Origin: a bacterium
Lineage (GTDB): Bacteria; CG2-30-53-67
Length of the DNA stretch: 64,000 nucleotides
Direction: 5' to 3'
Assembly (NCBI GenBank): GCA_919901565.1
Contig: CAKKPE010000050.1
Location: 1-64,000 of the forward strand
Each line of letters opens with the position of its first letter. Within the stretch, counting starts at the first letter, position 1. The notes beneath the pieces are model-generated. The model was given only the letters and a program-made list of their open reading frames with translations. It was not told where the DNA came from and searched no databases. Both the position numbers and the translations under genes were made by a program. Shown in pieces: positions 1 through 44,203 of this stretch.

Positions 1-554
1 AAGCTGAACAACATCGCACGCGGGATTTTTTTCAAGTTCTGCCCGATCTCACGCATCGAGAGCTCGCCTTCCTGAGTTCCCAGTGCCCCCCTCAGGGATG
101 AGGATACCGCCTTGATGTCATCCGCAATCGAGGAGAGTTTGCTGACCAGTTTCCCGATGTCCTCGCTTCCCGGGGGCGCCACGATGGTATCTCCATCCTT
201 GATGGACTCGCCGGACCTTCCGAGGGCGATCTCGAGATACTTGTCTCCCAATAACCCGAGAGATCGGATATAGGCCTTGGAGTCCCGGTCAATCGAGATT
301 CCGGGATCGATCCGGGCTATAACATTGGCCTTCCCGTTCTTGAGCTGGATATCATAGACCTTGCCCACTTCCACGCCGGCGATCTGAACGGACGAGTCCT
401 TGCTCAGCCCGGCCGCAGAATCGAAGATGAGGTTGATCATCTTTCCCGGCTTTCTGCTGACATGGATTTCTCCGACACGGAAGGACATATAGGTCAGGAT
501 CAGGATCCCCATGAATACGAAGAGGCCTACTTTGGCCTCGGCACTGAGTTTCAT
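1..554 (-). CDS. mlaD: MCE-domain protein MlaD-like (3' end cut by window edge)
   Basis: Periplasmic, inner-membrane-anchored MCE subunit of a lipid-trafficking ABC transporter. The visible N-terminus starts MKLSAEAKVGLFVFMGILIL, a single membrane anchor, and is followed by one MCE domain with the family pattern SVQIAGVEVGKV and later GLLGDKYLEI. The start codon overlaps the mlaF stop in an ATGA arrangement, so it is translationally coupled to the ATPase and is the third gene of mlaE-mlaF-mlaD. The C-terminus continues beyond position 1, so full length and any coiled-coil tail are unknown. Family assignment is firm; the lipid substrate is inference. Confidence 0.88.
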   Translation of the reverse strand, partial: MKLSAEAKVGLFVFMGILILTYMSFRVGEIHVSRKPGKMINLIFDSAAGLSKDSSVQIAGVEVGKVYDIQLKNGKANVIARIDPGISIDRDSKAYIRSLGLLGDKYLEIALGRSGESIKDGDTIVAPPGSEDIGKLVSKLSSIADDIKAVSSSLRGALGTQEGELSMREIGQNLKKIPRAMLFS

Positions 555-1330
555 TTTGCACTCCTCTCCATTAATTCTTTTTCAAGATCTTCAGTGATCG
601 GGCCCACTGCGCTGCCTGAGATGAACTGGCGGACAAAGGGATTGTCCGTATTCTGGATCTCCCTTGGGGTGCCGACCTGCAGGATCTTTCCCTTATAGAG
701 CATGGCAATTCTGTCCGCTATCTTGTATGCACTGACCATGTCATGGGTGATCGCCACAGAAGTTACGTTCAGCTTTTCCCGCATGCCGATGATCAGGTTG
801 TTGATCATGTCGGCGTTGATCGGATCAAGTCCGGTGGTCGGCTCGTCATACAGGAGGATCTGGGGTTCCAGAGCGATGGCCCTGGCCAGACCCACCCGTT
901 TCTGCATGCCGCCGGAAAGCTCGGACGGGCGAAGGTCTTCCACATCATAGAGCCCCACCATGGCCAGTTTTTCACGGGCTTTTTCCCGGATCTCCTGGTC
1001 CGAAAGGCCGGTATGCTGCTTCAGGCCGAATCCCACGTTTTCCCATACCGAAAGGGAGTCGAACAGGGCCGCCGCCTGAAAAAGCATCCCGAATTTTTTT
1101 CTTACACTGTTCAGGTCCTGTTCATTCAACTGGGTAATATCTTCGCCGGCTACGTAGATCCGTCCCGTGTCCGGACGGAGGATGCCGATAATGTGCTTGA
1201 TCAGGACACTCTTGCCGGATCCGCTCCCTCCGATAACGACCATGCTCTCTCCTTCCTGGATCTCCAGGTCCACGCCCTGAAGGACCTGGTTGTTTCGGAA
1301 GGATTTTTTCAGCTCTACAATCTTGATCAT
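551..1330 (-). CDS. mlaF: MlaF-like ABC transporter ATP-binding protein
   Basis: Cytoplasmic ATPase (259 residues, normal for MlaF) that would power phospholipid movement through the MlaE permease. Visible motifs are Walker A GGSGSGKS near residue 34, ABC signature LSGGMQKR near 140, Walker B ILLYDEPTTGLDP and switch His in AITHD. It lies between mlaE, 71 bp upstream, and mlaD, which overlaps it by 4 bp. An ATG start is used. The family call is secure; the direction of lipid transport cannot be told from sequence. Confidence 0.92.
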   Translation of the reverse strand: MIKIVELKKSFRNNQVLQGVDLEIQEGESMVVIGGSGSGKSVLIKHIIGILRPDTGRIYVAGEDITQLNEQDLNSVRKKFGMLFQAAALFDSLSVWENVGFGLKQHTGLSDQEIREKAREKLAMVGLYDVEDLRPSELSGGMQKRVGLARAIALEPQILLYDEPTTGLDPINADMINNLIIGMREKLNVTSVAITHDMVSAYKIADRIAMLYKGKILQVGTPREIQNTDNPFVRQFISGSAVGPITEDLEKELMERSAK

Positions 1331-1401
1331 AGGTTTTCAGTTCTCAAAAACGAATGTCCTGCCTCTCCGGGTTCTTAAACACAACGCTGTTCCAGACCGG
1401 A

Positions 1402-2202
1402 TTAGAACAAGATGGCCGTCAGGAAATAGTCCGATATCAGAATCAGCATGGAAGAGATGACCACGGAACCCGTGGTGGCTTTCCCCACCCCTTCGGCTCC
1501 TCCCTGGGTGTAAAAGCCTTTGTAGCAGCCGATTAGGGAGATGATCAGCCCGAAAACAGCAGCCTTCAGCAGCCCGCTGTAGATGTCGTTGAACGTCAGG
1601 TAATCCCAGGTTCTGCGGAGATAGACGGTCCGATTCGCATCCAGGATGGTTACGCTCACAAAAAGACCACCGTAGATTCCCACGATGTCCGAGAGTACCG
1701 TCATGACCGGGAGCATGACCAGGCCGGCGATCAGCCGGGGAACCACCAGATATTTGATCGGGTTGGTGGCCAGGGTGTAGAGTGCGTCAATCTGTTCGGT
1801 CACCCGCATGGTCCCGAGTTCCGCTGCCATGGCCGATCCGGCCCGTCCGGCGACGATCAGTCCGGTGAGCACGGGGCCGAGTTCCCGGGTCATGGAGAGG
1901 GCCACCACCGTGCCGACCAGGCTTTCGGCATTGAAGCGCTGGAATCCGGTATGGGTCTGAAGGGCGAGGACCATTCCGGTAAAAGTGGCCGTGATCAGCA
2001 CCACCGGGATGGAGTGTACACCCACCTCCAGCATCTGTTTAATGGTATTCCTTAAAAAGAAAGGGGGCTGGAAGGCCCAGACCAGGGCCTTGAAGAAAAG
2101 CAGGATCACTTTTCCGATCTCCTCGATCCCTTCCATGATCCAGTCACCCAGGACTTCCAGTAAGTCCGTCACGTAACCGGCCCCTTGACCTTTAAGCTCC
2201 AT
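1402..2202 (-). CDS. mlaE: MlaE-like lipid ABC transporter permease
   Basis: Integral inner-membrane permease of the MlaE/YrbE family (266 residues). It has several hydrophobic segments and the conserved stretch TRELGPVLTGLIVAGRAGSA, followed by AAELGTMRVTEQIDAL, the cytoplasmic coupling region. An upstream in-frame extension exists, but the ATG at 2200-2202 is preceded by a GAGGAGAAC ribosome site, so the shorter start is chosen. It overlaps the 3' end of alr by 11 bp and is probably cotranscribed with rplI-dnaB-alr. Confidence 0.9.
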   Translation of the reverse strand: MELKGQGAGYVTDLLEVLGDWIMEGIEEIGKVILLFFKALVWAFQPPFFLRNTIKQMLEVGVHSIPVVLITATFTGMVLALQTHTGFQRFNAESLVGTVVALSMTRELGPVLTGLIVAGRAGSAMAAELGTMRVTEQIDALYTLATNPIKYLVVPRLIAGLVMLPVMTVLSDIVGIYGGLFVSVTILDANRTVYLRRTWDYLTFNDIYSGLLKAAVFGLIISLIGCYKGFYTQGGAEGVGKATTGSVVISSMLILISDYFLTAILF

Positions 2203-3328
2203 GTTCTCCTCGCAAGTAGATTCGGGGGACCCTGCGGCCGATGCCGCAGAGGACCTCATAGGCAATGGTATTTCCCCACCGGGCCAGGTCCCATGCCGTG
2301 ATCCGGTCTTCTCCGTCCTCTCCGATCAGGGTTGCCTGGTCTCCCAGGTTTGCCTTAGGGATGTCTGTAACATCGGTGAGGACCATATCCATGGTGACCC
2401 TTCCCACCACCGGGGCCCGCCTGCCGTTCACCAGGACCTCGGCCCGGTTTGAGAGGGAGCGGGAATATCCGTCCGCGTATCCCACGGCAAGGGTGGCAAT
2501 TCGGCTCTTCCGCCGGGTCACAAAAGTGCGCCCATAGCTGAGCGGGGTCCCGGCCGGGACTTCCTTGAGATGGATGATCCTGGTCTTCCATGAAAGGACC
2601 GGCTGCAATTCCACCTTGCCTGGAAATGAATCCGACGGCATATATCCATACAACATGATCCCGGGCCGGACCATATTGAAAAGCGCCGGCTGGAAATCCA
2701 TGACTGCCGCGCTGTTGGAGATGTGCCAGAAGGGTATACGGAGCCCGATACCAGAAAGATGCTCCCGAAGCACCAGGAATTTCCCGAGTTGTCCTTCTGT
2801 AAAAGCCTTGTCCTCCAGGTCCGCATCGGCGAAATGGGAAATAACCCCCTCCACGCTCAGGCCCGGGAGACTGGCGATCTTCGGGATGGCCGCCTGGGCT
2901 TCTTCCGGGTTCAAACCCAGGCGTCCCATGCCGGTGTCCACCTTGATATGGACTGCGATCTTCTCTCCCCGGGCCTGGACCGTTCGGGATAATTCTTCGG
3001 CCCATGGAAGATGGTAAAGTACAGGGGATAGCTTCCAGTCCAGCAGAAGGCCGTGCTGTTCGGGGAAGGCCCCCCCTAAAACCGTGATGGATGCATCAAT
3101 GCCCGCCTGCCTGAGTTCAATCCCTTCTTCCACAGTGGCCACGCCGAGGAACCGGACCCCTTCCCGTTCCAGCGCCCGGCTGATTTCAACGGCGCCGTGC
3201 CCGTAGGCGTCAGCCTTGACTACAGCCAGAATCTTTCTTTCAGCGCCGGTCAACCTCATGACCTGATGAAGATTATGCTGCAGGGCCTGCAGGTTGATTT
3301 CAGCTATAGTGGGACGTGGACTCGGCAT
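2192..3328 (-). CDS. alr: Alanine racemase
   Basis: PLP enzyme interconverting L- and D-alanine for peptidoglycan. It is 378 residues from the ATG at 3326-3328, which has an AGGAAAAGG ribosome site; the longer open frame upstream overlaps dnaB and lacks family similarity. The PLP lysine lies in AVVKADAYGHG near residue 36. The opposite-face catalytic tyrosine is expected in VGYADGYSRS, and LSYGRTF is another family motif. The 5' end overlaps the dnaB stop by 29 bp, so alr is embedded in a replication/ribosome operon and leads into the Mla genes. Confidence 0.93.
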   Translation of the reverse strand: MPSPRPTIAEINLQALQHNLHQVMRLTGAERKILAVVKADAYGHGAVEISRALEREGVRFLGVATVEEGIELRQAGIDASITVLGGAFPEQHGLLLDWKLSPVLYHLPWAEELSRTVQARGEKIAVHIKVDTGMGRLGLNPEEAQAAIPKIASLPGLSVEGVISHFADADLEDKAFTEGQLGKFLVLREHLSGIGLRIPFWHISNSAAVMDFQPALFNMVRPGIMLYGYMPSDSFPGKVELQPVLSWKTRIIHLKEVPAGTPLSYGRTFVTRRKSRIATLAVGYADGYSRSLSNRAEVLVNGRRAPVVGRVTMDMVLTDVTDIPKANLGDQATLIGEDGEDRITAWDLARWGNTIAYEVLCGIGRRVPRIYLRGEHGA

Positions 3329-19701: not shown

Positions 19702-20481
19702 ATGGAATGGGCTTTGCATACGATTTCCCGCTACTTCCCCTTTGTAACGGTACTCGGGAGGATGGCCGGCTTTTTTCTGGAATCCGTGGCCGCTATTTTC
19801 ACGCCGAAATTCTATTCAGTCAGGATGCTGGAGCAGATGCAGCGGATGTGCGTCCACTGCATGGTGCCGGTCCTCTTCGTACTGGCCCCCATGGGAGCGG
19901 TTGTGGCCATGGAGAGCCTCAAGGTCTTTTCCATATTCGGCGCCTCCGGCATGACCAGCAGCCTCCTCTCCGTGGCCCTGTTCCGGGAACTTGCGCCGGT
20001 TCTGGTCTCGGTCATGGTGGCGAGCCAGGCCGGGGCGGAGACCGCTGCCGAACTCGGGGCCATGCGGGTCAGAGAGCAGATCGATGCCATGGAGGTCATG
20101 TCCGTGGATCCCCTCAAGGCCATGATTGTGCCGAGACTTCTGGCCGGGTTTTTTATCACGCCCATTCTGACCCTGGTCGGGACTTTCACCGGAATACTCG
20201 GTGGCTACATCATCGCGGTGATGGTCAAGGGATCGAACAGCGGCGCCTATATGGGAAACCTTTTTGTCTGGCTGAACATGATGGATGTGATGGGCGGTGT
20301 TATCAAGGCGGCGATTTTCGGCCTGCTGATCATGGTGATCAGCTGTCACCAGGGTTTCTACGCGAGCGGCGGGGCCGCAGGCGTGGGCCAGGCCACCAAC
20401 AATTCAGTGGTGCATTCAGTGGTTTCGATCCTGGTGGTGAATTACTTTCTGACCACCGCGTTCTTTGGGTTTAATATATGA
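19702..20481 (+). CDS. MlaE-family permease, first of a tandem pair
   Basis: 259-residue inner-membrane permease. Family signature FRELAPVLVSVMVASQAGAE, then AAELGAMRVREQIDAMEVM; C-terminal ISCHQGFYASGGAAGVGQAT is the conserved tail loop. GGAGCCGGTCGGAT precedes the ATG. A second, different MlaE protein is encoded immediately downstream, so the pair may form a heterodimer, as do the YrbEA/YrbEB permeases of actinobacterial mce operons. The TGA stop is provided by the first bases of a 126-bp repeat. Confidence 0.9.
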   Translation: MEWALHTISRYFPFVTVLGRMAGFFLESVAAIFTPKFYSVRMLEQMQRMCVHCMVPVLFVLAPMGAVVAMESLKVFSIFGASGMTSSLLSVALFRELAPVLVSVMVASQAGAETAAELGAMRVREQIDAMEVMSVDPLKAMIVPRLLAGFFITPILTLVGTFTGILGGYIIAVMVKGSNSGAYMGNLFVWLNMMDVMGGVIKAAIFGLLIMVISCHQGFYASGGAAGVGQATNNSVVHSVVSILVVNYFLTTAFFGFNI

Positions 20482-20605
20482 CGGCTTCGTAAAAAGTCCA
20501 TCTGCGGCGTTGCGCTGCGTCCTTCGTCATTGCAGCGTAGCTGTAAGTACGCCTCATTCCTCAGGACTTGCGCGCCTTGCATCTGGGCCTTTTTACTTTG
20601 CCGTC
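20480..20605 (+). repeat. 126-bp interspersed repeat with terminal inverted repeats (copy 1)
   Basis: Starts GACGGCTTCGTAAAAAGTCC and ends with the inverted GGCCTTTTTACTTTGCCGTC. A second near-complete copy lies in opposite orientation at 34477-34601, and end fragments occur at 27089-27121 and 49050-49062. Noncoding, MITE-like. Here it sits inside an operon between two permease genes and overlaps the stop codon of the first. Confidence 0.85.
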
Positions 20606-20638
20606 CCATTTGAGGATTTTTTCAAATATAGGCGGCTC

Positions 20639-21412
20639 ATGGAAGTTGTCAACGTACAGGTGCTGGGCCTTTTCGGATACCTCTTTGCAGAGGTCGGCAG
20701 GTATGCCTATTTCGTCGCGGAGACATTCCGCAACCTGTTTTACAAGAAGTTTTATTTTCTCAACCTGATCGACGAGATGAACACCATAGGGAGCCGGTCC
20801 CTGCTTGTGCTGGCCCCGGTGTCGGTCTTTGTGGGGATGAACCTCTGCGTAGAGGGGTTCATCTTCTTCAAGAAATTCGGTGCGCAGAACCTGGTCGGGA
20901 TGTTCGTGGCCGTGGCCAACATCCGTGAGCTTTCCCCGCTGATTGCGGGACTGATTACGGGGGCCAAGGCCGGCACACAGATGGCCGCCCGGATCGCGAC
21001 CATGCGGATAACCCAGCAGGTTGACGCCATGGAGGTTATCGGGGTCAATCCCTACGCCTACATGATCATCCCCAGGGTGATAGGCGCCATACTCGTCATG
21101 CCGTTCCTGGTGGTGGTCGCCTACTTTGTGAGCACGCTCTCGGCCTATCTGGTTGCGGTCTACCAGCTCGGCCTGAACGGGGATGCATTCATGAACCTGG
21201 TCTTTGCCAACATTACCATGCAGGACATGTACAAGGGGATGATCAAAGGGGCTGTCTTCGGCGGGATCATCGCCACAGTCTCCTGCTACAGCGGCTACAC
21301 GGCCTCGGGCGGGGCCCGCGGTGTGGGGGCGGCCACGAACCTGGCGGTGGTCCGGATGTCCACGGCAGTGGTTTTTTTCAATATCTTTCTAACGGAATGG
21401 ATGTTCATGTAA
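20639..21412 (+). CDS. MlaE-family permease, second of a tandem pair
   Basis: 257 residues from the ATG at 20639. The open frame extends upstream through the 126-bp repeat, but that part is repeat-derived and not MlaE-like. Signature IRELSPLIAGLITGAKAGTQ, then AARIATMRITQQVDAMEVI; tail VSCYSGYTASGGARGVGAAT. It differs from its neighbour in the coupling loop (GTQMAARIA against GAETAAELG), so this is not a recent duplication. It precedes the ATPase gene by 9 bp. Confidence 0.88.
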   Translation: MEVVNVQVLGLFGYLFAEVGRYAYFVAETFRNLFYKKFYFLNLIDEMNTIGSRSLLVLAPVSVFVGMNLCVEGFIFFKKFGAQNLVGMFVAVANIRELSPLIAGLITGAKAGTQMAARIATMRITQQVDAMEVIGVNPYAYMIIPRVIGAILVMPFLVVVAYFVSTLSAYLVAVYQLGLNGDAFMNLVFANITMQDMYKGMIKGAVFGGIIATVSCYSGYTASGGARGVGAATNLAVVRMSTAVVFFNIFLTEWMFM

Positions 21413-21421
21413 GAGGGGTTC

Positions 21422-22243
21422 ATGATCGAGTTTCGCCATGTGTACAAATCCTTCGGTGACCTTGTGGTTCTGGATGATGTCTCCTGCGAGATCCCCGAGG
21501 GGAAGATCACCATGATCATCGGGCCGAGCGGGACCGGGAAGAGCGTTTTTATCAAACTTATGGTCGGTATCGTAAAACCTGACAGCGGAGATGTCATCGT
21601 GGACGGCCATGTGATCTCGAGTCTCCCGACCCATGAACTCTATGAGGTGCGCAAAAAATTCGGCGTCCTTTTCCAGGATGGGGCGCTTTTTGATTCCATG
21701 AGCGTGGGGGAGAATGTGGCCTTCCCGCTCCGGGAGCATACCCGTCTTTCGAATGCAGAGATCTCAAGGATCGTTTCGGACAAGCTGACATCGGTCGGGA
21801 TGCCGAACTCCGAATGCCGTCTGCCCAGCGAGCTCTCGGGCGGCATGAAGAAAAGAGCGGCCCTGGCCCGTGCCATCGTTATGGAGCCGGACATCGTGGT
21901 CTTTGACGAGCCCTCTTCGGCCCTGGACCCCGTGACCGCGGATTCCATTGACAACCTGATCCTGGAAATGCAACAGAGGCTCCAGTGCACCTTCGTGGTG
22001 GTGAGTCACGATATTGAAAGCACCTTCAAGATTGCAGACTATATCGGGATGCTGTGGCAGGGGAAGCTGATAGCCTTCGGAGAAAAAGATAAAATCATGA
22101 ACATGAACAACGACGTCCTCCGGCAGTTTTTCAGCCGGCGTGCCCAGGGGCCGATCCAGATCGTGCCGCCGATATGCAAGGACCTTGATGAAGCAGGAAG
22201 CAGGGGTGCGGGGAACGGCCGGGATGTCTCAAGCAAAAAATAG
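21422..22243 (+). CDS. MlaF-like ABC transporter ATP-binding protein
   Basis: 273-residue ATPase for the tandem-permease system. Walker A GPSGTGKS near residue 37, signature LSGGMKKR, Walker B IVVFDEPSSALDP, switch VVSHD. The C-terminus has a short basic extension. GAGGGG lies before the ATG. Compared with the other two MlaF proteins in the window, the D-loop PSSALDP replaces PTTGLDP or PTTGQDP, so the three ATPases are distinct paralogues. Confidence 0.92.
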   Translation: MIEFRHVYKSFGDLVVLDDVSCEIPEGKITMIIGPSGTGKSVFIKLMVGIVKPDSGDVIVDGHVISSLPTHELYEVRKKFGVLFQDGALFDSMSVGENVAFPLREHTRLSNAEISRIVSDKLTSVGMPNSECRLPSELSGGMKKRAALARAIVMEPDIVVFDEPSSALDPVTADSIDNLILEMQQRLQCTFVVVSHDIESTFKIADYIGMLWQGKLIAFGEKDKIMNMNNDVLRQFFSRRAQGPIQIVPPICKDLDEAGSRGAGNGRDVSSKK

Positions 22244-22290
22244 ATCCATGTGCGTCATGATTTTAAGGGCTGCGGGATAAGGAGAACCAA

Positions 22291-23214
22291 ATGGGTCAGA
22301 ACCGATTCGTGGTATTAGGGCTGTTCGTGCTTCTCGCTATGGCGATGTTCTTTTACCTTGCCTACAAAGTGGAGTCGTTCTCCCTGGGCCGGGGGACCGA
22401 GGTGACGGTCCTGTTCGAAGACGCCACCGGCCTGAAGAAGGGTGGGGATGTCAAGATCAAGGGGGTGATCTTCGGGAAAATCACGTCGCTTGATTACCAG
22501 GACAACCGGGCTGAGGTCAGGATCCGGCTCCCGCGGGACGTCAAGGTCCCACGGGATGTCATGGCCAGGATCCGTCCGGAAAGCCTGCTCGGTGAGAATT
22601 TCCTCGAACTGATCATCCCGGCGGGAAGCACTGCGGAACCGCTCAAGTCCGGGGACGTGATCACCAATTCCAGCAAGGCCATTGACATCAACCAGTTCGT
22701 GGACAAGGTAGGGGTCTTCATCGAACGATTCGATGCCTCGAACTTTCCGGATAATCTCAGCAAGATTGTGGCAACCCTGGCGGACAACAGCGGAAGAATC
22801 CAGGAGACGATCAAGAACCTCGACAAACTGGCCCTGGATGCCAGTGCCCTGATCTCCGGAAACAAGGATTCGCTCCAGAGGACCATCCAAAACTTCGACA
22901 GGCTTACTGCCGCTTTTGGCAAGGAGGCTCCGAAGAGCGCGGAAAATCTCAATCAGATCCTCGCCCGCCTGGAGAAATTGACAGGCGACCTGGAACAGAA
23001 GTCTCCGGACCTGGCCGAGGACCTGGGCAGGACCATGAAGAACCTCTCCGCTGCTTCCGAGGAACTTCCCAAGACCTTGCAGGATGTTCAGGAACTTTCA
23101 GCAAGACTTCATACCACGCTGGACAATGTGGACCATTTCTTTCTTGAGGATACCCCTGATATCAAGGACATCCTGGAAAACCGGGGGATCAAGACAAGAG
23201 TCAGGATCTGGTAA
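22291..23214 (+). CDS. MCE-domain protein MlaD-like, long form
   Basis: 307 residues: N-terminal anchor VVLGLFVLLAMAMFFYLAY, one MCE domain (GGDVKIKGVIFGKI to SLLGENFLELI), then about 170 residues of helical, coiled-coil-like sequence with many Leu/Asn/Lys. Long tails of this type in PqiB- or MCE-like proteins can form periplasm-spanning channels. Much longer than the 157-residue MlaD at 37.3 kb. GGAGAACCAA ribosome site. Last transport gene of this operon; no MlaC or MlaA is adjacent. Confidence 0.9.
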   Translation: MGQNRFVVLGLFVLLAMAMFFYLAYKVESFSLGRGTEVTVLFEDATGLKKGGDVKIKGVIFGKITSLDYQDNRAEVRIRLPRDVKVPRDVMARIRPESLLGENFLELIIPAGSTAEPLKSGDVITNSSKAIDINQFVDKVGVFIERFDASNFPDNLSKIVATLADNSGRIQETIKNLDKLALDASALISGNKDSLQRTIQNFDRLTAAFGKEAPKSAENLNQILARLEKLTGDLEQKSPDLAEDLGRTMKNLSAASEELPKTLQDVQELSARLHTTLDNVDHFFLEDTPDIKDILENRGIKTRVRIW

Positions 23215-34476: not shown

Positions 34477-34601
34477 GACGGCAAAGTAAAAAGCTCCAGA
34501 TGCAAGGCGCGCAAATCCTGAGGAGTGAGGCGTACTTATAGCTACGCTGTAGCGACGAAGGATGCAGCGCAACGCCGCAGATGGACTTTTTACAAAGCCG
34601 T
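34477..34601 (-). repeat. 126-bp interspersed repeat (copy 2, inverted)
   Basis: Reverse-complement copy of 20480-20605 with scattered substitutions. Its ends are GACGGCAAAGTAAAAAGCTC and ATGGACTTTTTACAAAGCCG. Lies between the kinase gene and rnpB, directly at the 3' side of the RNase P RNA. Confidence 0.85.
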
Positions 34602-34611
34602 GGTAAAAGAT

Positions 34612-34973
34612 CCCAAGCAGATCTGTAAGCCGGGTTCTGTATCCCGCCGAAGCGGGACGGTAATCATTCCTCTAGCCCCGACGTCGCCATCGGGGTCAAG
34701 CGACCTAACCCGGAGGCATCGGACGGGCCATCCTCAATCGCCTCCCTATTTGGTCTTGCTCCGGATGGGGTTTGCCAGGCTGCCCGGTCACCCGGACACC
34801 GGTGGGCTCTTACCCCGCCATTTCACCTTTACCCCGGACGGATCCGGGGCTGTGTATTTTCTGTGGCACTTTCCTTCCCGTCACCGGGACTTCCCGTTAG
34901 GAAGCATCCTGCCCTGCGGAGCCCGGACTTTCCTCCCCGGTAAAAACCGGGGCGATTACCCGATCTGCTTGGG
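34612..34973 (-). ncRNA. rnpB: RNase P RNA, bacterial type A
   Basis: Catalytic RNA that removes tRNA 5' leaders. The ends form a perfect 12-bp P1 helix: CCCAAGCAGATC at the 5' end (34973-34962) with GATCTGCTTGGG at the 3' end (34623-34612). The 5' part has the conserved AATCGCCCC stretch and the 3' part the RNase P segment read as ACAGAACCCGGCTTAC on the minus strand. About 362 bases, a normal size. The ends may extend a few bases. Confidence 0.9.
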
Positions 34974-34981
34974 ACGGACCT

Positions 34982-35010
34982 ATTGTAGCCTGAAACCGGG
35001 GTTTCGTAAA
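34982..35010 (-). promoter_or_regulatory. rnpB promoter
   Basis: Minus strand TTTACG (35010-35005) and TACAAT (34987-34982), spacer 17, which places transcription start within a few bases of the P1 helix. Confidence 0.65.
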
Positions 35011-35235
35011 GGGAAAGAGTTTGGACGGCGGTAGACAAGGACGCTCAAAAATGGCTTCCTTATTTCATTGAATGTGTGTACAATGCAAAACGGATGCACT
35101 CAGCCTTGGGATATCGGCCTTCCAATGAGTTTGAAAACATTCTGAATCAGGAACAAAACTTTAATCCATCCTGTATGTGGACTCTAACTTGATCGAAGAA
35201 TCTGTCCAGACAGAGGGGTTCACTCCAGAACATAC

Positions 35236-36072
35236 ATGAAAGAACGGGGAAGAGCTGAAGAGATGGAGTCGACGATAAAACACAACTTCCTTAGGCTGTT
35301 CTTTGATTTTCTCGGCAAAAAGACGGTCGCGGCGATACGCGATACAGGGGCGGTAGCGATATTTTTTACGGTTTCCTTTCTCAAGATTTTTCAGCCCAGG
35401 CAGCTGCGGGAGATCGTCCAACAGGTCTTTTACATCGGAGCCAAGTCGGCAAGTATTGTGATGCTCATCGGCCTCTTTACCGGCATGGTGCTCGGTCTTC
35501 AGCTTTTCTTTACGCTGACGAAATTCGGCTCTCAGGGCGTACTCGGTTCGGTCGTTGCCCTCTCGCTCATCAGGGAACTGGGCCCTGTGCTTACGGCGAT
35601 CATGATTACCGCACGGGCCGGCTCCGCTATGGCCGCGGAAATCGGCATCCTGCGCATTTCCGAGCAGATCGACGCCCTGTATACCATGCGGATCGATCCT
35701 CAACGATACCTCATCAGTCCGCGTCTTGCCGCCTCCGTCATTAGCTTCCCCCTTCTCACCGCATTTTTTGATCTGATCGGAATACTCGGGGGATATCTCA
35801 CCGGTGTGCTCCTGCTCGGTGTGGATAGGGGCGCCTACTTTTATCGAATCCATTCCTATGTGGACCTGGCCGATATCAGGGTCGGCTTCATCAAATCGCT
35901 CATCTTTGCCGTGATCGTGTCGACGACCTGCTGCTACCAGGGATATTTCACCCACCTCCGTACCGACAGCTACGGCGCAAAAAGCGTCAGTCTTTCGACG
36001 ACGTCGGCGGTTGTATTCTCGTGCGTCCTGATCCTGATCGCAGATTACATCGTGACGTCCTTGCTCATGTAG
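35236..36072 (+). CDS. mlaE: MlaE-like permease of the complete Mla operon
   Basis: 278-residue permease. Signature IRELGPVLTAIMITARAGSA and AAEIGILRISEQIDALYTM; C-terminal CCYQGYFTHLRTDSYGAKSV differs from the usual GGAEGVG loop of the other copies. The start could be 35236 or the ATG at 35263; neither ribosome site is strong. First gene of mlaE-mlaF-mlaD-mlaC-mlaA, which implies a full system linking inner and outer membranes. Confidence 0.88.
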   Translation: MKERGRAEEMESTIKHNFLRLFFDFLGKKTVAAIRDTGAVAIFFTVSFLKIFQPRQLREIVQQVFYIGAKSASIVMLIGLFTGMVLGLQLFFTLTKFGSQGVLGSVVALSLIRELGPVLTAIMITARAGSAMAAEIGILRISEQIDALYTMRIDPQRYLISPRLAASVISFPLLTAFFDLIGILGGYLTGVLLLGVDRGAYFYRIHSYVDLADIRVGFIKSLIFAVIVSTTCCYQGYFTHLRTDSYGAKSVSLSTTSAVVFSCVLILIADYIVTSLLM

Positions 36073-36080
36073 AGGTGCCT

Positions 36081-37331
36081 GTGGAAACGCCGTTGATAGA
36101 ATTCAAAGAAGTCACCAAGCGGTTTGACGAAAAGACTGTTTTCGACAAGTTGAATTTCACGATTTACGAGAACCAGATCACGACCATCATCGGGAAGAGC
36201 GGAAGCGGCAAGAGCGTTCTCCTCAAACACATCATCGGGCTGCTTTTTCCTGAGGAAGGGAGCATTCTTTTCAAAGGAAGGCCCGTTCACGAGATGAAGA
36301 AGGGCGAATGGGACGGATACCGGAGCCGGATCAGCTACATGTTCCAGGGCAATGCCCTTTTTGATTCAATGACGGTCTTTGAAAACATAGCCCTTCCGCT
36401 CAGGCAGACAACAAACCTCGTCAGGAAGCAGGTCGAACAGAAAGTGATGTCGCGGATCGAACAGATGGAGATCATAGACGCTGTTCATCAGTACCCGTCG
36501 GAGCTCTCGGGGGGAATGCAGAAACGGGTGGCCCTTGCCCGCGCTCTCGTAACAGAACCGACCATCGTGCTTTTTGACGAGCCTACAACCGGGCAGGACC
36601 CTATCAGGAAAAACGCCATCCTGAGCATGATCGCCCATTACCGGAAACAGCTCGGCTTCACCGCCGTTCTCATCAGCCATGACATCCCCGACGTTTTTTT
36701 TATTTCCGACCGCATTCTCCTGCTCTGGGAAGGAAAGATGGCCTTCAGCGGGACCTATGAAGAACTGACGCACCTGAAACATCCGCTGATTGATGAATTT
36801 CTCCGGAGCCTCGAAGGCCTGAGGGACGAGCTCACCGGGCTGCTTTCCAAAGAGATATTCAGGTCCCGGTATGCCCTGACGCTGGGCGGCGGGCGTGTCG
36901 ACACCACCATCACGGCCGTGCTTTTCAGCGTCCACCTTGACCTTCTTGGGGATGTGTTCGTTCCCCAAGCTGTTGCAGAGGTCCTCAAAGCCCTCGGTGA
37001 GTATGTAAACAAAGTTTTCGGTCCCCTCGGAGGGTTCTCGGCCCGCCACAGCAGGGACAAGATACTTAGCATTTTGCAGCACATAGGAATTGAAAAAGTC
37101 GGGCAATTAGTACATGATATAGCCCAGGAGCTCCAGAACAAAGCTCTTCCCGATTTCCAAGCTCATGCCGGTGGCAGGATAGGAGTCAAGCAATGTTTCG
37201 AAATATCGGTGACCGCAGGCATGACTGAAGGCAGCTCTACTGATGACATTGAACAGATCATGGAGAAGGCCGAAGCAAATCAAAAGATAATAGCGAAGTA
37301 TCGGTGCGGCAAGGAGGGTGGTTCACCATGA
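36081..37331 (+). CDS. mlaF: MlaF-like ATPase fused to a degenerate GGDEF-like domain
   Basis: 416 residues from GTG 36081, which has AGAGG five bases upstream. Residues 1-245 are a complete MlaF: Walker A GKSGSGKS, LSGGMQKR, LFDEPTTGQDP, ISHD. From about 248 a further 168 residues begin LRDELTGLLSKEIF, like the opening of diguanylate cyclase domains, and end VTAGMTEGSSTDDIEQIMEKA, like their C-terminal half. The GGDEF signature site reads ARHSRDKI, so cyclase activity is not expected. MlaF normally ends near 270 residues, so the tail is unusual. Overlaps mlaD by 4 bp. Confidence 0.87.
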   Translation: METPLIEFKEVTKRFDEKTVFDKLNFTIYENQITTIIGKSGSGKSVLLKHIIGLLFPEEGSILFKGRPVHEMKKGEWDGYRSRISYMFQGNALFDSMTVFENIALPLRQTTNLVRKQVEQKVMSRIEQMEIIDAVHQYPSELSGGMQKRVALARALVTEPTIVLFDEPTTGQDPIRKNAILSMIAHYRKQLGFTAVLISHDIPDVFFISDRILLLWEGKMAFSGTYEELTHLKHPLIDEFLRSLEGLRDELTGLLSKEIFRSRYALTLGGGRVDTTITAVLFSVHLDLLGDVFVPQAVAEVLKALGEYVNKVFGPLGGFSARHSRDKILSILQHIGIEKVGQLVHDIAQELQNKALPDFQAHAGGRIGVKQCFEISVTAGMTEGSSTDDIEQIMEKAEANQKIIAKYRCGKEGGSP

Positions 37332-37801
37332 AAAAGTATTCGATCGAAACGGTTGTGGGCATTTTTGTGATTGCCGGCCTTCTCAGTATTGTATATATGA
37401 CTGTGAAACTCGGCAAGGTCTCCCTGTTCGGAGATGATTACTATTCACTTTATGCTAATTTTGGAACGGTGTCCGGTTTGCGGGTCGGCAGCCCTGTTGA
37501 GATTGACGGTATCGAGGCCGGCCGGGTGGAACGATTGAGTATAGACCAGGAAAAACAGGTGGCGGTGGTCGAATTAAAGATCAAGAAAGGAATCAAGGTT
37601 TATGATAACGCCGGAGCGTCAGTCAAGACGGCCGGTCTCATCGGCGATAAATTCATAAAAGTCGATCCCGGAGGCGGAGGCGAGGTCCTTAAGCCGGGCG
37701 AAAGGATTACCGAGACCACATCTCCCCTCGATATAGAGGATATGATCGGTAAATACGCATTCGGAGATATCAAAAAAGACAATAAAGAGGATACCAAATA
37801 A
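37328..37801 (+). CDS. mlaD: MCE-domain protein MlaD
   Basis: 157 residues from the ATG at 37328 with AAGGAGGGTGG ahead. One N-terminal membrane anchor (VVGIFVIAGLLSIVYM), one MCE domain (VGSPVEIDGIEAGRV, GLIGDKFIKV) and only a short charged tail, the compact E. coli-like form. Translationally coupled to the MlaF-GGDEF gene. Expected to form the hexameric ring that receives lipid from or passes it to MlaC. Confidence 0.92.
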   Translation: MKKYSIETVVGIFVIAGLLSIVYMTVKLGKVSLFGDDYYSLYANFGTVSGLRVGSPVEIDGIEAGRVERLSIDQEKQVAVVELKIKKGIKVYDNAGASVKTAGLIGDKFIKVDPGGGGEVLKPGERITETTSPLDIEDMIGKYAFGDIKKDNKEDTK

Positions 37802-37818: not shown

Positions 37819-38412
37819 ATGAAGAAACATCTCGTTATCGCGGCACTCATTTTGTGCCTGATCGTTCCGGTTTCCGCCCTTGCAGGGGTTCCGCTTGATA
37901 TGGTGAAAGGTAATGTCGACAAAGTGCTGGAGGTACTGCGCGACCCGTCGCTCAAGGCCGAATCCGCCAAGAAGATCAAGAAGGATAAAATCATGGACAT
38001 TGCGGATAAGATGTTCGACTTTACCGAACTTTCAAAAAGGACGCTGGCCCAGTACTGGAACAAGTTAAATGCAGCGCAGCAGAAGGAGTTTGTCGATCTC
38101 TATAAGTCTCTGCTCGCGGATACCTATGCGGACAAGATACTGCAGTACACCGAGGAGAAGATAGTCTTCGGCAAAGAGGTGCCGCTTGCCGAAAAGACCG
38201 TGGAAGTCCAGAGCACGGTCATGAGAAAAAATGGGGATGTCTCGATCTACTACAGAGTGATACAGGATGACGGCTCATGGAGGATCTACGATGTGGTCAT
38301 CGAAGGCGTAAGCCTCATCAGTAACTACCGCTCCCAGTTTAAAGAGATCCTTGCGAACAAGCCGCCGGAATCATTACTCGAGACGCTCAGAAAAAAAACT
38401 GGCAAAACGTAA
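37819..38412 (+). CDS. mlaC: Periplasmic phospholipid-binding protein MlaC
   Basis: 197 residues with a cleavable signal peptide (LVIAALILCLIVPVSALA). The mature MlaC/Ttg2D domain includes MFDFTELSKRTLAQYW, NAAQQKEFVDLYKSLL and the beta stretch DGSWRIYDVVIEGVSLISNY. Shuttles lipid between MlaA and the MlaFED complex. Ribosome site AGGAGGAAAC, 17 bp after mlaD. Confidence 0.93.
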   Translation: MKKHLVIAALILCLIVPVSALAGVPLDMVKGNVDKVLEVLRDPSLKAESAKKIKKDKIMDIADKMFDFTELSKRTLAQYWNKLNAAQQKEFVDLYKSLLADTYADKILQYTEEKIVFGKEVPLAEKTVEVQSTVMRKNGDVSIYYRVIQDDGSWRIYDVVIEGVSLISNYRSQFKEILANKPPESLLETLRKKTGKT

Positions 38413-38448: not shown

Positions 38449-39390
38449 ATGAAACTCATATCTATTTCTATACTTACCGCTGTTTTTGCACTCTGTCCGG
38501 CCTTGTTAAGGGCAGATATGTTTTTGATAAATCCCGATATACGAACAGCTCAGCCGGTAGTGCCGGATGCAAATACAGCCTCGCAGATACCGCCGTCATG
38601 TACCTCACCGGACTATACCCTACCGCTCTGTTATCAGGTTCATGCTCCGAGCGGAGAGATGCAAATCCTCCTGACGCAGCGCAACGAGGCTGAAGAAAAA
38701 ATGATCGTGGAGCCGGTGCCTGCTGCAAACACGTATGTTCCTGATGAGAGTAAAAAGGAAACCCCGCAGATTCTTGACCCTCTTGCTCCCGTGAACAAGG
38801 TCATGTTCCATGTTAATGACAAGCTGTACTTTTGGGTACTCAAGCCGGTGGCTCAGGGATATTCCTTTGTTGTTCCCGAACTGGTGAGAACAGGCCTCGG
38901 CAATGCTTACGACAATCTCAAGTCGCCGGCCAGAATAGTGAACAATCTGCTGCAACTGAGGCTCAAACGGTCAGGGAATGAACTCATCAGGTTTCTTTTC
39001 AATTCCGTTGTAGGGATCTGTGGCCTTGGCGATGTTTCCAAGGGACTTCTCGGCATCGATAAACAGGAGGCTGATTTCGGCCAGACGCTGGGCCGTTACG
39101 GCGTGGGCCACGGTTTGTATCTCGTATTGCCCATACTCGGGCCTTCTTCAGTTCGTGACGGGGTCGGGCTTGCCGGAGATACGTTTATGTATCCCATGAC
39201 TTATGTGAGTATTCATTATCTGAACTTTTGGGAAGGTGCAGCGCTCTATACACACGAAAAGGTGAATGATACCTCATTCAGGATCGGAGATTATGAGGCT
39301 TTCAAGCAGGCGGCCATAGATCCTTATGTCTCCATGCGCGACGCCTTTGTCCAGTATCGGCAGAAAAAAGTTGAGGAAGCAAGGCGATAG
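38449..39390 (+). CDS. mlaA: Outer-membrane lipid-asymmetry protein MlaA (VacJ)
   Basis: 313 residues. The conserved MlaA domain covers roughly 105-300: DPLAPVNKVMFHVNDKLYFW, PARIVNNLLQLR, FGQTLGRYGVGHGLYLVLPI and GPSSVRDGVG. Unlike the enterobacterial protein, the signal sequence lacks a proper lipobox; the only nearby Cys is in FALCP, so a soluble or peripherally attached form, or another anchoring mode, is implied. About 80 extra residues precede the domain. Last gene of the operon. Confidence 0.92.
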   Translation: MKLISISILTAVFALCPALLRADMFLINPDIRTAQPVVPDANTASQIPPSCTSPDYTLPLCYQVHAPSGEMQILLTQRNEAEEKMIVEPVPAANTYVPDESKKETPQILDPLAPVNKVMFHVNDKLYFWVLKPVAQGYSFVVPELVRTGLGNAYDNLKSPARIVNNLLQLRLKRSGNELIRFLFNSVVGICGLGDVSKGLLGIDKQEADFGQTLGRYGVGHGLYLVLPILGPSSVRDGVGLAGDTFMYPMTYVSIHYLNFWEGAALYTHEKVNDTSFRIGDYEAFKQAAIDPYVSMRDAFVQYRQKKVEEARR

Positions 39391-39419: not shown

Positions 39420-40130
39420 CTATGTCTCAGAATAAAGGATCCGTCCGCAGTAGGAACAGGTGATGATGGAGTTGGCCTTGCGAACGTCGTTGTAGACCTG
39501 GGGAGGGAGGGTCATATGACACCCCTGGCAGGTTCTTTCTATGATCGGGACCAGTGCAGGGGGGCCCTTGTGCGCCAGGATCCTGTTATAATGGTTCAGT
39601 TGTTTCGGACTGATCTCGCGCGAGATGTCCTCTCTTTTCAATTTCAGCTCCTTGTTCTCGGCATTAAAATGGGTATTCGCATTTTCCATCTCCTGTTTTT
39701 TCTTGAGGAATGCCGCCTCTTCAACCTGGCACTGAGACGAGACCTCATCCCTTTCCTTCTGCAGTTCTTCGAGGGTCCCCATCCTGGCGAGGAGGTCCTG
39801 CTCCAGCCTGCTTTTCTCCTTCTGCATGGTCTCGATCTCTTTCTGGAGGGCGAAATATTCTTTTTGGGTGGTGATCAGGGGGAGCTTGTCCCTGGACTTC
39901 TGAATCTTGTCGTCATCCTCCTTGATGGATTGTTCGAGGCGGAGCATTTCACGGTGGATCTCGGAGATGCGGCTGATCAGCTCATCCCTCCTGGTTTCCA
40001 GTTGCGTGAGCGGGGCCTTTACTCCCCGAATATCCAGTTGCAGTCTTTTCATCATCTCTTCAACTTCCTGCAGACGGGTGTCAACTGTCTGAAGATGGAT
40101 AAGTCCGCTGATGTCTTCTTTGATGGTCAT
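39420..40130 (-). CDS. Coiled-coil protein with C4 zinc ribbon (CdsZ/DUF-type)
   Basis: 236 residues: a long antiparallel coiled coil (about 15-180) followed by a zinc ribbon with CQGCHMTLPP and CSYCGRILY. This matches the conserved family annotated as C4-type zinc-ribbon protein, often encoded near macromolecular-synthesis genes. Role uncertain; RNA or protein binding has been suggested for relatives. Last gene of the minus-strand block starting at rpsU, though separated from the tRNA by a terminator. Confidence 0.82.
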   Translation of the reverse strand: MTIKEDISGLIHLQTVDTRLQEVEEMMKRLQLDIRGVKAPLTQLETRRDELISRISEIHREMLRLEQSIKEDDDKIQKSRDKLPLITTQKEYFALQKEIETMQKEKSRLEQDLLARMGTLEELQKERDEVSSQCQVEEAAFLKKKQEMENANTHFNAENKELKLKREDISREISPKQLNHYNRILAHKGPPALVPIIERTCQGCHMTLPPQVYNDVRKANSIITCSYCGRILYSET

Positions 40131-40195
40131 GGTTTCACTCCTATCACAGTGCTCTCTTCCATTTCATGTATGAAAGTTACTGCATGATGGATGCC

Positions 40196-40230
40196 AAAAA
40201 AAATGCACTTTAGCAGTCTAAAGTGCATTT
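40196..40230 (-). terminator. Rho-independent terminator after the tRNA
   Basis: 12-bp perfect stem AAATGCACTTTA (40201-40212) with TAAAGTGCATTT (40219-40230), followed on the minus strand by eight T. Ends the rpoD/tRNA transcript. Confidence 0.88.
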
Positions 40231-40294
40231 CGTGTAAACCTGTGATATATCTCTGTTGAAAAGAAAAGCAAACTCATCCATGGGTCTCTGTAAA

Positions 40295-40371
40295 TGGTGG
40301 GCCCACCAGGATTCGAACCTGGGACCAACCGGTTATGAGCCGGTGGCTCTGACCAGCTGAGCTATAGGCCC
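40295..40371 (-). tRNA. tRNA with CAU anticodon, probably tRNA-Ile2
   Basis: 77 bases including encoded CCA. Cloverleaf: acceptor GGGCCTA pairs with TGGGCCC, D-arm AGCTCAGCTGGTCAGAGC, anticodon loop CTCATAA, T-arm CCAGGTTCGAATCCTGG. CAU can be Met or, after lysidine modification, Ile2. The acceptor stem has C4-G69 and C5-G68 and the loop A37-A38, which are TilS recognition features, favouring Ile2. Elongator Met remains possible. Confidence 0.9.
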
Positions 40372-40517
40372 TGCTGAATTTCCTGTGGGGTCTTCCGGCC
40401 ATATGCCATAAGCCTTCTTTACCGGGCAAGAAGCCCTATACTCCTGGAAAAAAAATACTTTATAAAATAATCGTTATGATGTCAAGAATATTTTATATGT
40501 TTCCCAAACCGGACGAA

Positions 40518-42392
40518 TTATGAGCCTTCAATGAAGGCCTTGAGTATCCTGCTCCTGGTCGGGTGCCTGAGTTTTCGAAGCGCCTTGGCCTCGATCTGGC
40601 GGATACGCTCACGCGTGACCTTGAATTCCTGCCCGACCTCTTCCAGGGTGTGGTCGGTGGCCTCCCCGATGCCGAAACGTTTCCGCAGGACCTTCTCTTC
40701 CCTGGGAGTCAGCGTCTGCAGGACCTTTCCTACGGTTTCCTGGAGATTAATTTTGACCACGGCCTCAGACGGGGACATGATCTTTTTGTCTTCGATGAAG
40801 TCGCCGAGATGGCTGTCTTCCTCCTCTCCGACAGGGGTTTCCAGGGATATGGGTTCCTTGGCTATCTTCAGTACCTTGCGGACCTTCTCAACCGGGAGGT
40901 CCATTTCCTTGGAGATCTCCTCGGGCGTGGGTTCTCTCCCCATTTCCTGGACCAGGAGCCTTGTGGTTCTGATCAGCTTGTTAATGGTCTCGATCATGTG
41001 CACCGGGATCCGGATGGTCCTGGCCTGGTCCGCAATGGCCCGGGTAATGGCCTGCCGGATCCACCAGGTGGCATAGGTGCTGAACTTGTACCCCCGGCGG
41101 TATTCAAATTTGTCCACGGCCTTCATGAGACCGATATTCCCTTCCTGGATCAGGTCCAGAAAGAGAAGGCCCCGGTTGGTATATTTCTTGGCAATGCTCA
41201 CAACCAGCCTCAGGTTGGCTTCAACCATTTCCGCCTTGGCGCTCTGGGCCTCGACTTCACCGGCCTTGAGTTTCTTGAGTGCCTTCTTGAAGTAATCGGA
41301 ATCCTGCTCAAATGTCCTTTCAATCAGGCGGATCTGTTTCAGCGCCCTCTTGAGTCTGAGTCCGGTGAGTCTGAGCCTCTCCGGCTTGACCCTCGCTGTT
41401 TTCTCGAGTTTCTTGCACCTTGGAGTTATACGCTTGGCGTTGACATAGGCCAGGATATCTTCGGAAGAGAGCCCGGCGGCTTTTTCGCAGTTCTTGAGTT
41501 CTTTCTGAAGGACATCGATCCGTTCCACGATGGTCTTGAGCCGAAGTGTGAAGCGTTCGATCTGGTCCGGATGGAAGTCGATCTGCTTCATCAATGAGAT
41601 CACCTTCTCCTTGGTTTCCTCGATCTCGCGCCTGTATTTCTCCAGGGTCTCTTTCTTCTTGATCCTTGGGTCCTGGATGCGGCCCTGGAGATAAATGATC
41701 TGATCGTTCAACTCCTGTATATCATCGATGAGCTTGAGGGTTTGTTCCCGGAGTTCATTGTCCGAGGTCCCGGATGAAAACTCCTCGCCGAAGTCCTCTT
41801 CGCTGCCGCAAACCACGTCCCGGATATAGGCCCTGCCCTTCCTGAGCCGTTTTCCCAGGGAAAGGACCATGCGAATTACAAAAGGAGAGTTCATGAGGAC
41901 TTCCGTGGTTTTTTTCTGGCCGGCCTCGATTCTTTTGGCAATCCTGACCTCTCCCTCCCGGTTCAGGAGAGGGATGGTCCCCATCTCTTTGAGATAAAGG
42001 CGCACAGGGTCGTCGGTTTTGCCGACCGCTCCCGGGGAGAGGTCGAGATGCAGGTGGCTCTCTTCAGTATCCTCGGGCTCTTCCATTCCGGCGTCCATGT
42101 CCATGTCCACGCCTTCTTCCTTGAAGTCCACCTCGAAGCCCTTGATCTCTTCTTCTTCCTGGTCCAGTTCGTGATCCAGGCTGATTTTGCCATGCACCTC
42201 CCCATCCTGGGTGGTCTCCATGATCTCTATATTCATGTTGTTGAGCATGATGATCAGCTCATCGATCTGTTCGGAATTCACCATATCTTCCGGAAGGGCA
42301 TCGTTCAGCTCATCATAGGTCAGAAAACCTTTTTCCTTGCCCAGGGTGATGAGCGATTTGACTTCAGGGCTTCGTCTGATTTTTTTTGTCAT
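40518..42392 (-). CDS. rpoD: Primary sigma factor RpoD (sigma-70)
   Basis: 624 residues. Region 1.1 (N-terminal 80), an acidic linker, region 1.2 ([16 protein letters not shown]), a large non-conserved insertion (about 180-360), region 2 ([35 protein letters not shown]), region 3 and region 4 ([20 protein letters not shown]). Start overlaps the dnaG stop (ATGA). Housekeeping sigma of the macromolecular-synthesis operon; consistent with the many TTGACA-17-TATAAT-like promoters in the window. Confidence 0.97.
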
Positions 42393-44203
42393 TCTCTTAC
42401 GTTCCTCCGTTCAGAACCGAGTTTCTGCTGGAGCGTCTCAACCTCCAGCGAAATGTTGTATATTTCTCTTGCAAGCTGCGTGGCGTCCTGGTCTCTTCCT
42501 TGTTTTTCGGCAGTTTCAGCCTCTTGCTGAAGTGTTTTTTTCGTTCTCTTGAGATATTCCTGCCGGACCCTGTCGATCAGGCCATGCAGGTCTATGGGCT
42601 CATGATCCTTTATGAAAAATCCCGAGAGCACTCCCGCAAGGGAATCGTCATCATCCGGAATCAGAGATCTGATTGCATCGGTGCCGGGTTTGCCACCGGG
42701 ATAATCAAATATCCGCTGTACCACGGACCGAAGTCCGGGACTGCTGAAATAGCCCGGTTCGATACGCTCCTTGACCTGCTGGACCAGGTCAGGGTGATTG
42801 ATCATGAGGCCCACCATGGCCCCTTCCCAGACCGGGGTCCCTTTTACTACGGGGGCTGTCCCTTGCCTGCTTAACGGATCCTCCCTGCCCCAAGGTTTTG
42901 CGGCATTGGACCGGATGGTGGCCTTCATGGTCCTTGGGTCTATCCCCACGAGAGAGGCGACCTGATTCGTATAGAGTTCCTGCTCGATCGGGTTGGGGAT
43001 CATGGCAAGAAGAGGGATCAGCCGTTCGGCAATCGCCACCTTCTCGTCCAGGGTCTGTTGCGGCATCTCCTGAATGGCATGTTCAATCATGAAGTCCATG
43101 ATCGGTTTGGCCTCGGCCATCCTGTCCGAGAATCCCTTTTTGCCGTATTTTCCAAGAAAACTGTCCGGGTCCTCACCCTGGGCAAGGGTGACCACCTTGA
43201 TTTTCATCCCCTCTGGTACACAGATGTCAAAAGAGCGTTTGGCGGCCTTGATCCCGGCCTCGTCCGAGTCGAAAAACAGGGCCAGGTTCCGGGTATACCG
43301 CTGGAGTTTGCGGACATGCGCTCTGGTCAGGGCGGTCCCGAGTGTGGCAGCAATGTTCCTGATGCCGTTCTGGAAGGTTGTGATCACGTCCATATACCCT
43401 TCGACCAGGATGGCGTACTCCTGTTTGCGGATCGCCTCATACGATAGGTTCAGCCCGTACAGGCTGGCCCCCTTGTCAAAGACCGGCGTCTCCGGAGAAT
43501 TGAGGTACTTGGGAGTGGAATCGTCAAGGACCCGGCCCCCAAAACCAAGAACCCTTCCGTAGATGTCCACGATGGGGAACATAATCCGGTTGCGGAACCG
43601 GTCATAGCAGCCGTCTCCGCTTTTCTTTTTCAGGGCCAATCCGGCCAGTTCTATCTCCTTTTCATTGAAACCGAGTCCCTTGAGGTGAAGGGTCAGGGCA
43701 TCCCAGGAGTCCGGTGCATACCCGATCCGGAAGACCGAGATGGTCTCATCGGTGACGCCACGGTCATTGAGGTAGGACTGGGCGGTGCTGGTTTTCTTTC
43801 CGGCCTCGGAAAAGAACGATGCGGCCGCCTCATTGATCTCAAAGATTTGGTCCTTTGTTTTTTTCTGGGCCAGGTCTTCGGGGGTCCGCTCGATCTCGGG
43901 AACAGGCCTGCCGCAGCGTTCAGCCAGGGCGCGGACCGAATCCGGAAACCCCATGTGCTCATGTTTCATCAGGAAGTGGAAGACGTTCCCCCCTTCACCG
44001 CAGCCGAAACAGTGAAAGATCTGCTTGGACGGGTTGACCATAAAAGATGGTGTTTTCTCCGAGTGGAATGGACAGAGACCTTTATAATGGCTCCCCGATT
44101 TTTTAAGGGAGACATAATTGGAGATCACATCCACGATGTCACTCTCTTCCCTGACCGTATTGATAAATTCCTCCGGGAAAAACATAGCCTTGACCGCTTT
44201 CAT
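42389..44203 (-). CDS. dnaG: DNA primase
   Basis: 604 residues. CHC2 zinc ribbon near residue 40 ([22 protein letters not shown]), then the catalytic core and Toprim motif ([21 protein letters not shown]), and a C-terminal helicase-binding domain that would contact DnaB. Overlaps mutS2 upstream and rpoD downstream by four bases each, so all three are translationally coupled. Confidence 0.96.

Follow-up and report, generated by a model that had tools for sequence, protein, structure and literature searches.

The window analysed here, a 64,000-nucleotide stretch of a bacterial contig, carries a tightly packed mla operon on its forward strand in the order mlaE-mlaF-mlaD-mlaC-mlaA, assigned with Pfam. 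The permease gene mlaE (35236..36072, 278 aa; MlaE, 4.1e-74) is followed by the gene under study, an mlaF fused to a degenerate GGDEF domain (36081..37331, 416 aa), and then by an mlaD of the short E. coli-like type (37328..37801, 157 aa; MlaD, 2.3e-19), mlaC (37819..38412; MlaC, 1e-47) and mlaA (38449..39390; MlaA, 4.4e-67). The fused gene is open in one frame from a GTG at 36081 to a stop at 37329-37331, which is overlapped by the ATG of mlaD at 37328, and it is likewise a single open frame in all 24 full-length members of the family described below. The GTG start is supported by the homologues, which begin M(E/D)TPLIEF at the equivalent position. In all relatives mlaE lies directly upstream of the fused gene. 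Apart from mlaE, mlaD, mlaC and mlaA, the four genes with which an MlaF is expected to be encoded, their loci show no partner gene joined to the operon by fusion or by constant linkage.

Just upstream of the operon an Rfam scan places a class A RNase P RNA (317 bits) at 34610-34971 on the minus strand; a 169-residue ORF at 34525-35034 (+), reading '...KPGSVS...GARTFLP', is an artefact, being the antisense translation of rnpB. A dispersed repeat of about 122 bp is seen at 34480-34601 and 20481-20602 (-), with at least 41 matches of 84-93% identity in the 2.96-Mb genome. It folds into a single long hairpin (-52.1 kcal/mol, z -6.0) and belongs to no Rfam family, and one copy adjoins rnpB near the mla operon. 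Other MCE-type loci in the window comprise mlaE/F/D-like genes at 1-2265 (-) and a set of two permeases, an ATPase and an MCE protein at 19702-23214 (+); the ATPases of both are ordinary and tail-less.

The first 246 residues of the fused protein (36081..36818, +) form an MlaF-type ABC ATPase domain (Pfam ABC_tran, 7.9e-36) with a complete set of catalytic motifs: Walker A GKSGSGKS at residues 38-45 (36192..36215, +), invariant among the aligned homologues, the signature LSGGMQKR at residues 142-149 (36504..36527, +), Walker B LFDEP and the H-loop SHD. The Met of the signature is typical of Mla/TGD ATPases and has been noted for Mla-type nucleotide-binding domains (NBDs; PMC7367683). The best of 196 NCBIfam models is that of MlaF (PRK11831, 2.6e-57), and because its score of 194 bits falls below the strict equivalog cut-off of 441 the protein is best described as a distant MlaF. 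A fold search with the full-length model also places MlaF structures at the top, at 37% identity. The preliminary description, which had recognised in this 416-residue frame a complete MlaF followed by a GGDEF-like tail, is thus borne out for the ATPase half, and its reading of the tail sequence, with RDELTGLLSKEIF and with ARHSRDKI at the GGDEF site, proved exact.

The tail itself spans residues 247-416 (36819..37328, +). Taken alone, it scores below the curated cut-off of the Pfam GGDEF family (E = 0.0019, 18.4 bits against 23.8), and a single-sequence phmmer search of the PDB with it returned chance matches only. The wider family is more informative: 20 of 20 homologous tails match Pfam GGDEF, the best at 1.8e-12, with almost no other family matched, and a profile of the tails searched against PDB chains picks up, at low significance (best E = 0.008), diguanylate cyclases or related c-di-GMP proteins, and no clearly unrelated protein is named among the matches. 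Aligned with hhalign to ten canonical GGDEF domains, the tails give a probability of 98.8% over 155 columns and a reversed control 0.1%, in a comparison that is not fully independent, the ten domains being themselves matches of the tail profile. An AlphaFold model of the tail from nine sequences (pLDDT 82, pTM 0.79) has the element order helix-beta-helix-beta-beta-helix-beta-helix-beta, and the top 18 matches in a PDB fold search with it are all either GGDEF proteins or Cya2, a related cyclase (E 1e-4, probability 1.00). The query-normalised TM-scores to these 18 structures are only 0.35-0.55, as expected because the member is divergent and its alignment shallow. Fold and profile similarity extend along the whole tail, as they should between homologues, and on this evidence from profiles and prediction the roughly 170 residues that follow the MlaF ATPase are a degenerate domain of the GGDEF (diguanylate cyclase) fold, as first proposed.

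The fate of the functional sites was mapped by comparing 24 fused members with ten canonical GGDEF domains. At the start of the tail the DxLT hinge, here DELT (residues 249-252; 36825..36836, +), keeps its D, L and T in 24/24 fused proteins and in 10/10 canonical domains, and the Arg preceding the old GGDEF motif is also kept in all 24. The motif itself has been destroyed across the whole family, as had been noted for the single sequence: the former loop, placed by alignment to canonical domains, now reads SRDKI (residues 324-328; 37050..37064, +), none of the 24 members contains a GGDEF-like motif, and the second Gly is replaced in every one, by Arg in 21. Of the two metal-site Asp residues the first is missing from 23/24 and the second, like the guanine-binding Asn, from 24/24. 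No RxxD occurs anywhere near the place of the I-site in any of the 24; that place is occupied by a near-invariant, family-specific strand, GGFSAR (residues 317-322; 37029..37046, +). No member, then, has the loop, the two Asp and the Asn of a diguanylate cyclase, nor the RxxD upstream of the loop that marks an I-site-type c-di-GMP receptor. Judged by these residues, catalysis by any known mechanism is excluded and canonical binding of GTP or c-di-GMP by the tail is very unlikely.

The distribution of conserved positions follows the same lines. From residue 237 to the end 22 residues are invariant, concentrated in E239-Y264, which covers the last part of the ATPase as well as the DxLT hinge and first helix, and in GGFSAR. 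Conservation peaks at the joint of ATPase and tail (residues 237-264, mean 3.6-3.8 bits) and at GGFSAR (3.97 bits), and the former substrate loop, at 2.0 bits, is the least conserved part of the tail. The hinge to the ATPase is conserved and the old nucleotide site is not. These results bear directly on the suggestion in the preliminary description that the domain might link lipid transport to c-di-GMP or GTP. A tail that still sensed either nucleotide, and so coupled the transporter to a second messenger, would fit the intact fold, the retained DxLT and pre-motif Arg, and the fact that fusion-bearing genomes also encode active-looking diguanylate cyclases. Against it stand the loss of metal ligands, Asn, GG loop and RxxD just described and the poor conservation of the substrate loop, and on this mapping of residues we reject this part of the earlier proposal as very improbable.

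The fusion is not peculiar to the window. A whole-protein search of genome contigs gave nine fused loci, two of them broken by a frameshift or a contig end, all in Nitrospirota. Searches with the tail profile covered the Nitrospirota and the window's own phylum; in 396 Nitrospirota genomes they found about 20 fusions (E < 1e-44), the rest being weak matches (1e-7 to 1e-3), which, where their sequences were read, were canonical GGDEF proteins or diguanylate cyclases. In the order to which one member belongs the fusion is present in 23 of 177 genomes. When the ATPase half was used as query, every match of 71-83% identity lay in a frame of 419 residues or more, apart from those interrupted by a frameshift or stop; the matches that came next, at 46-49%, lay in tail-less frames of 250-286 residues. 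Every intact orthologue above 70% identity thus keeps the tail; frameshifted copies (L003, L009 and G340), presumed to be probable assembly errors or cases of local decay, were left out of the count of losses.

In the tree the 24 full-length fused proteins form one clade on a branch with 100/100 support. All are from Nitrospirota except the protein of the window's own genome, which is nested among them. The phylogeny indicates that the fusion is an old family with a single origin, captured once in an ancestor within the Nitrospirota. The window's phylum is represented in the sample by eight genomes, and the other seven have no tail. Since this small phylum otherwise lacks it, the operon in the window was probably gained horizontally, which is the simplest reading of a sample of eight that is also compatible with loss in the other seven. 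The absence of the tail from genomes of the same phylum also raised the question of contamination or mis-binning of the contig, which was rejected: rpoD, 3 kb from the tail on the same contig, is 90% identical to that of a same-genus genome and places the contig in its genome. In the same-genus genome G003 (locus L040), rpoD and an adjoining primase-like gene (window 42389-44203) are found in the same order as in the window (39420-44203), and other genes occupy the place of the mla operon.

As to the source of the domain, outside its own family the tail profile finds its best matches, with E of about 1e-7 to 1e-6, in GAF-GGDEF cyclases (L099-L102) that the same Nitrospirota genomes encode. Unlike the fused tail, these cyclases carry a sensor region at the N-terminus, retain the GGDEF motif intact and are not fused to a transporter; by profile similarity they are a possible donor type.

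Could the tail be a functionless passenger, captured once and now decaying? The lost catalytic residues would suit such a history, as would the pace of change: identity to the window sequence is 41-69% for tails and 70-83% for ATPases, and the median pN/pS is 0.42 in the tail against 0.17 in the ATPase, making the tail the faster-evolving half. However, the tail is of full length in every intact member, even where its sequence has diverged to 41% identity, 22 residues from 237 onward are invariant, and dN/dS for the tails of the closest pairs is only 0.12-0.25. On these ratios the tail is clearly under purifying constraint, and decay into a pseudogene was rejected; of all the explanations considered here, a passenger is the least probable. 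Conservation in 24 full-length homologues, the window included, together with this constraint makes the tail more than a chance observation.

What the tail replaces is best seen by comparison with E. coli MlaF, as known from the MlaFEDB structures (PDB 6XGY/6XGZ). The two proteins have in common the ATPase domain, the signature Met and the operon partners, but E. coli MlaF ends in an extended C-terminal extension (CTE) of about 25 residues and pairs with MlaB. The short 'handshake' extension is absent from the window protein, where a globular GGDEF-fold domain of about 170 residues stands in its place and no MlaB is encoded in the operon. The E. coli CTE begins at residue 247 and is essential, and its loss is largely rescued by a GCN4 dimerisation domain (PMC7367683). 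The tail starts at the same place, so that a dimerising domain there is functionally plausible. MetNI, MalFGK and ModBC have regulatory C-terminal domains that self-associate beneath their NBDs (PMC7367683), and the window protein is predicted to carry a folded domain after its NBD in the manner of MetN, MalK and ModC. In MetN, of the methionine importer MetNI, an alpha/beta domain likewise follows the ABC ATPase at a similar C-terminal position, but that domain is ferredoxin-like, belongs to a different fold family and has its own ligand. MetN structures are near the top of the fold search with the full-length model, aligned over 326-337 columns and hence over both domains, the model being poor over the ATPase; in this AlphaFold model from seven sequences pLDDT is below 50 over most of the ATPase.

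The comparison with GGDEF proteins is equally instructive. The tail has in common with diguanylate cyclases (the GGDEF domain of DgcB, PDB 6TTS; DgcR, PDB 6ZXM) the fold, the order of elements, DxLT and the pre-motif Arg, but it lacks their GGDEF motif, both metal Asp residues, the guanine-binding Asn and RxxD, and it follows an ABC ATPase rather than a sensor. In DgcR, DxLT is the hinge between the input helix and the GGDEF domain (PMC8041772).

We favour, at a probability of roughly one half, the view that the tail serves as a C-terminal regulatory or dimerisation domain of MlaF, analogous to that of MetN and in place of the handshake extension, because it sits at the position of the CTE and because the DxLT hinge itself is invariant. 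In the assembled transporter two tails would lie beneath the two ATPase domains and pair with each other, and by way of the retained hinge they would keep in place or bias the ATPase dimer and its attachment to MlaE. The tail would thereby take the part that in E. coli falls jointly to MlaB and the extension of about 25 residues, and that the ferredoxin-like C-terminal domain plays in MetNI. Should it receive a signal, a protein partner would be a likelier source than a guanine nucleotide.

Action through protein contacts is an established role of degenerate GGDEF domains, and many of them bind a partner instead of dimerising. The tail may, with appreciably less likelihood, be a module that recruits a partner or receives a signal, tying the transporter to a cytoplasmic regulator or to a location in the cell. 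Such a role would account for a tail that for the most part evolves faster than the ATPase and yet keeps GGFSAR, near-invariant and specific to the family; the faster evolution fits a lineage-specific partner as well as it fits a scaffold. It is weakened by the absence of any fused or constantly linked gene other than mlaE, mlaD, mlaC and mlaA, and by the fact that the strongest conservation is shared with the joint to the ATPase.

The preliminary description had also noted the absence of mlaB and proposed that the tail takes its place as a regulatory domain. A STAS profile that recovers 29 of 30 STAS loci finds no STAS gene anywhere in the window or in 39 fused loci, a set that includes repeat views of the same genomes, so the absence is confirmed, and the survey of homologues extends it, with no mlaB found beside the fused gene in any relative. 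Neither of the two observations named beforehand as contrary, a tail fold unrelated to GGDEF or an mlaB accompanying the fused ATPase in relatives, was made. A tail that substituted for MlaB would dock on the helical subdomain of MlaF where MlaB does and stabilise MlaF on MlaE, and E. coli MlaF does require MlaB to remain on MlaED (PMC7367683). In 11 fusion-bearing Nitrospirota genomes, moreover, a STAS_2 gene adjoins a different, tail-less MlaE/MlaF paralogue pair; this stand-alone gene, of the YIDSSGIATFVE type and seen beside the second pair in eleven loci, is a candidate for the MlaB of another MCE system.

The nearest unfused operons of Nitrospirota, with a tail-less MlaF of 46-49% identity, have no STAS or MlaB gene in the flanks examined either, and the same holds for the flanks examined of unfused MlaF loci, in MCE-type operons, of the window's phylum. 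Because these unfused relatives also lack the gene, its absence is not tied to the fusion and either predates it or is independent of it. MlaB, moreover, is not universal as an operon partner of MlaF, and its distribution among diderms is reported to be sparse (PMC10665443). GGDEF and STAS domains differ in fold, and we know of no binding surface common to them. The lack of MlaB beside the fused gene stands and a regulatory role for the tail is likely, but a specific trade of one for the other is not supported, and docking at the MlaB site seems to us doubtful. The unfused Nitrospirota operons (L175-L178, for example L176:3638-7555) run mlaE-mlaF-mlaD-TolC-like-mlaC, with an extra gene of about 1.35 kb between mlaD and mlaC. 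Its translation, inspected by eye, resembles TolC, which hints that a protein other than MlaA may be the partner in the outer membrane.

Each half of the fused protein is familiar, and it is a variant both of Mla ATPases and of degenerate GGDEF domains with a new job; in the open-access literature we could find nothing relevant on an ABC-GGDEF or MlaF-GGDEF fusion, and neither their combination nor its fixation in one lineage appears to have been described. The fusion shows plainly that a domain of c-di-GMP enzymes can be reused as part of an ABC motor. More speculatively, and on balance unlikely, the GGDEF domain may have been converted into an allosteric module that switches the outer-membrane lipid-asymmetry transporter on and off, its signal being a protein partner or a new ligand rather than c-di-GMP; if true, this would add a new mode of regulation for MCE/Mla transporters. 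The regulation of Mla transporters, and the need of E. coli MlaF for both its handshake extension and MlaB, are poorly understood (PMC7367683). A lineage that may solve the problem of assembly or regulation with a repurposed second-messenger domain offers a natural comparison and a protein in which to test it.
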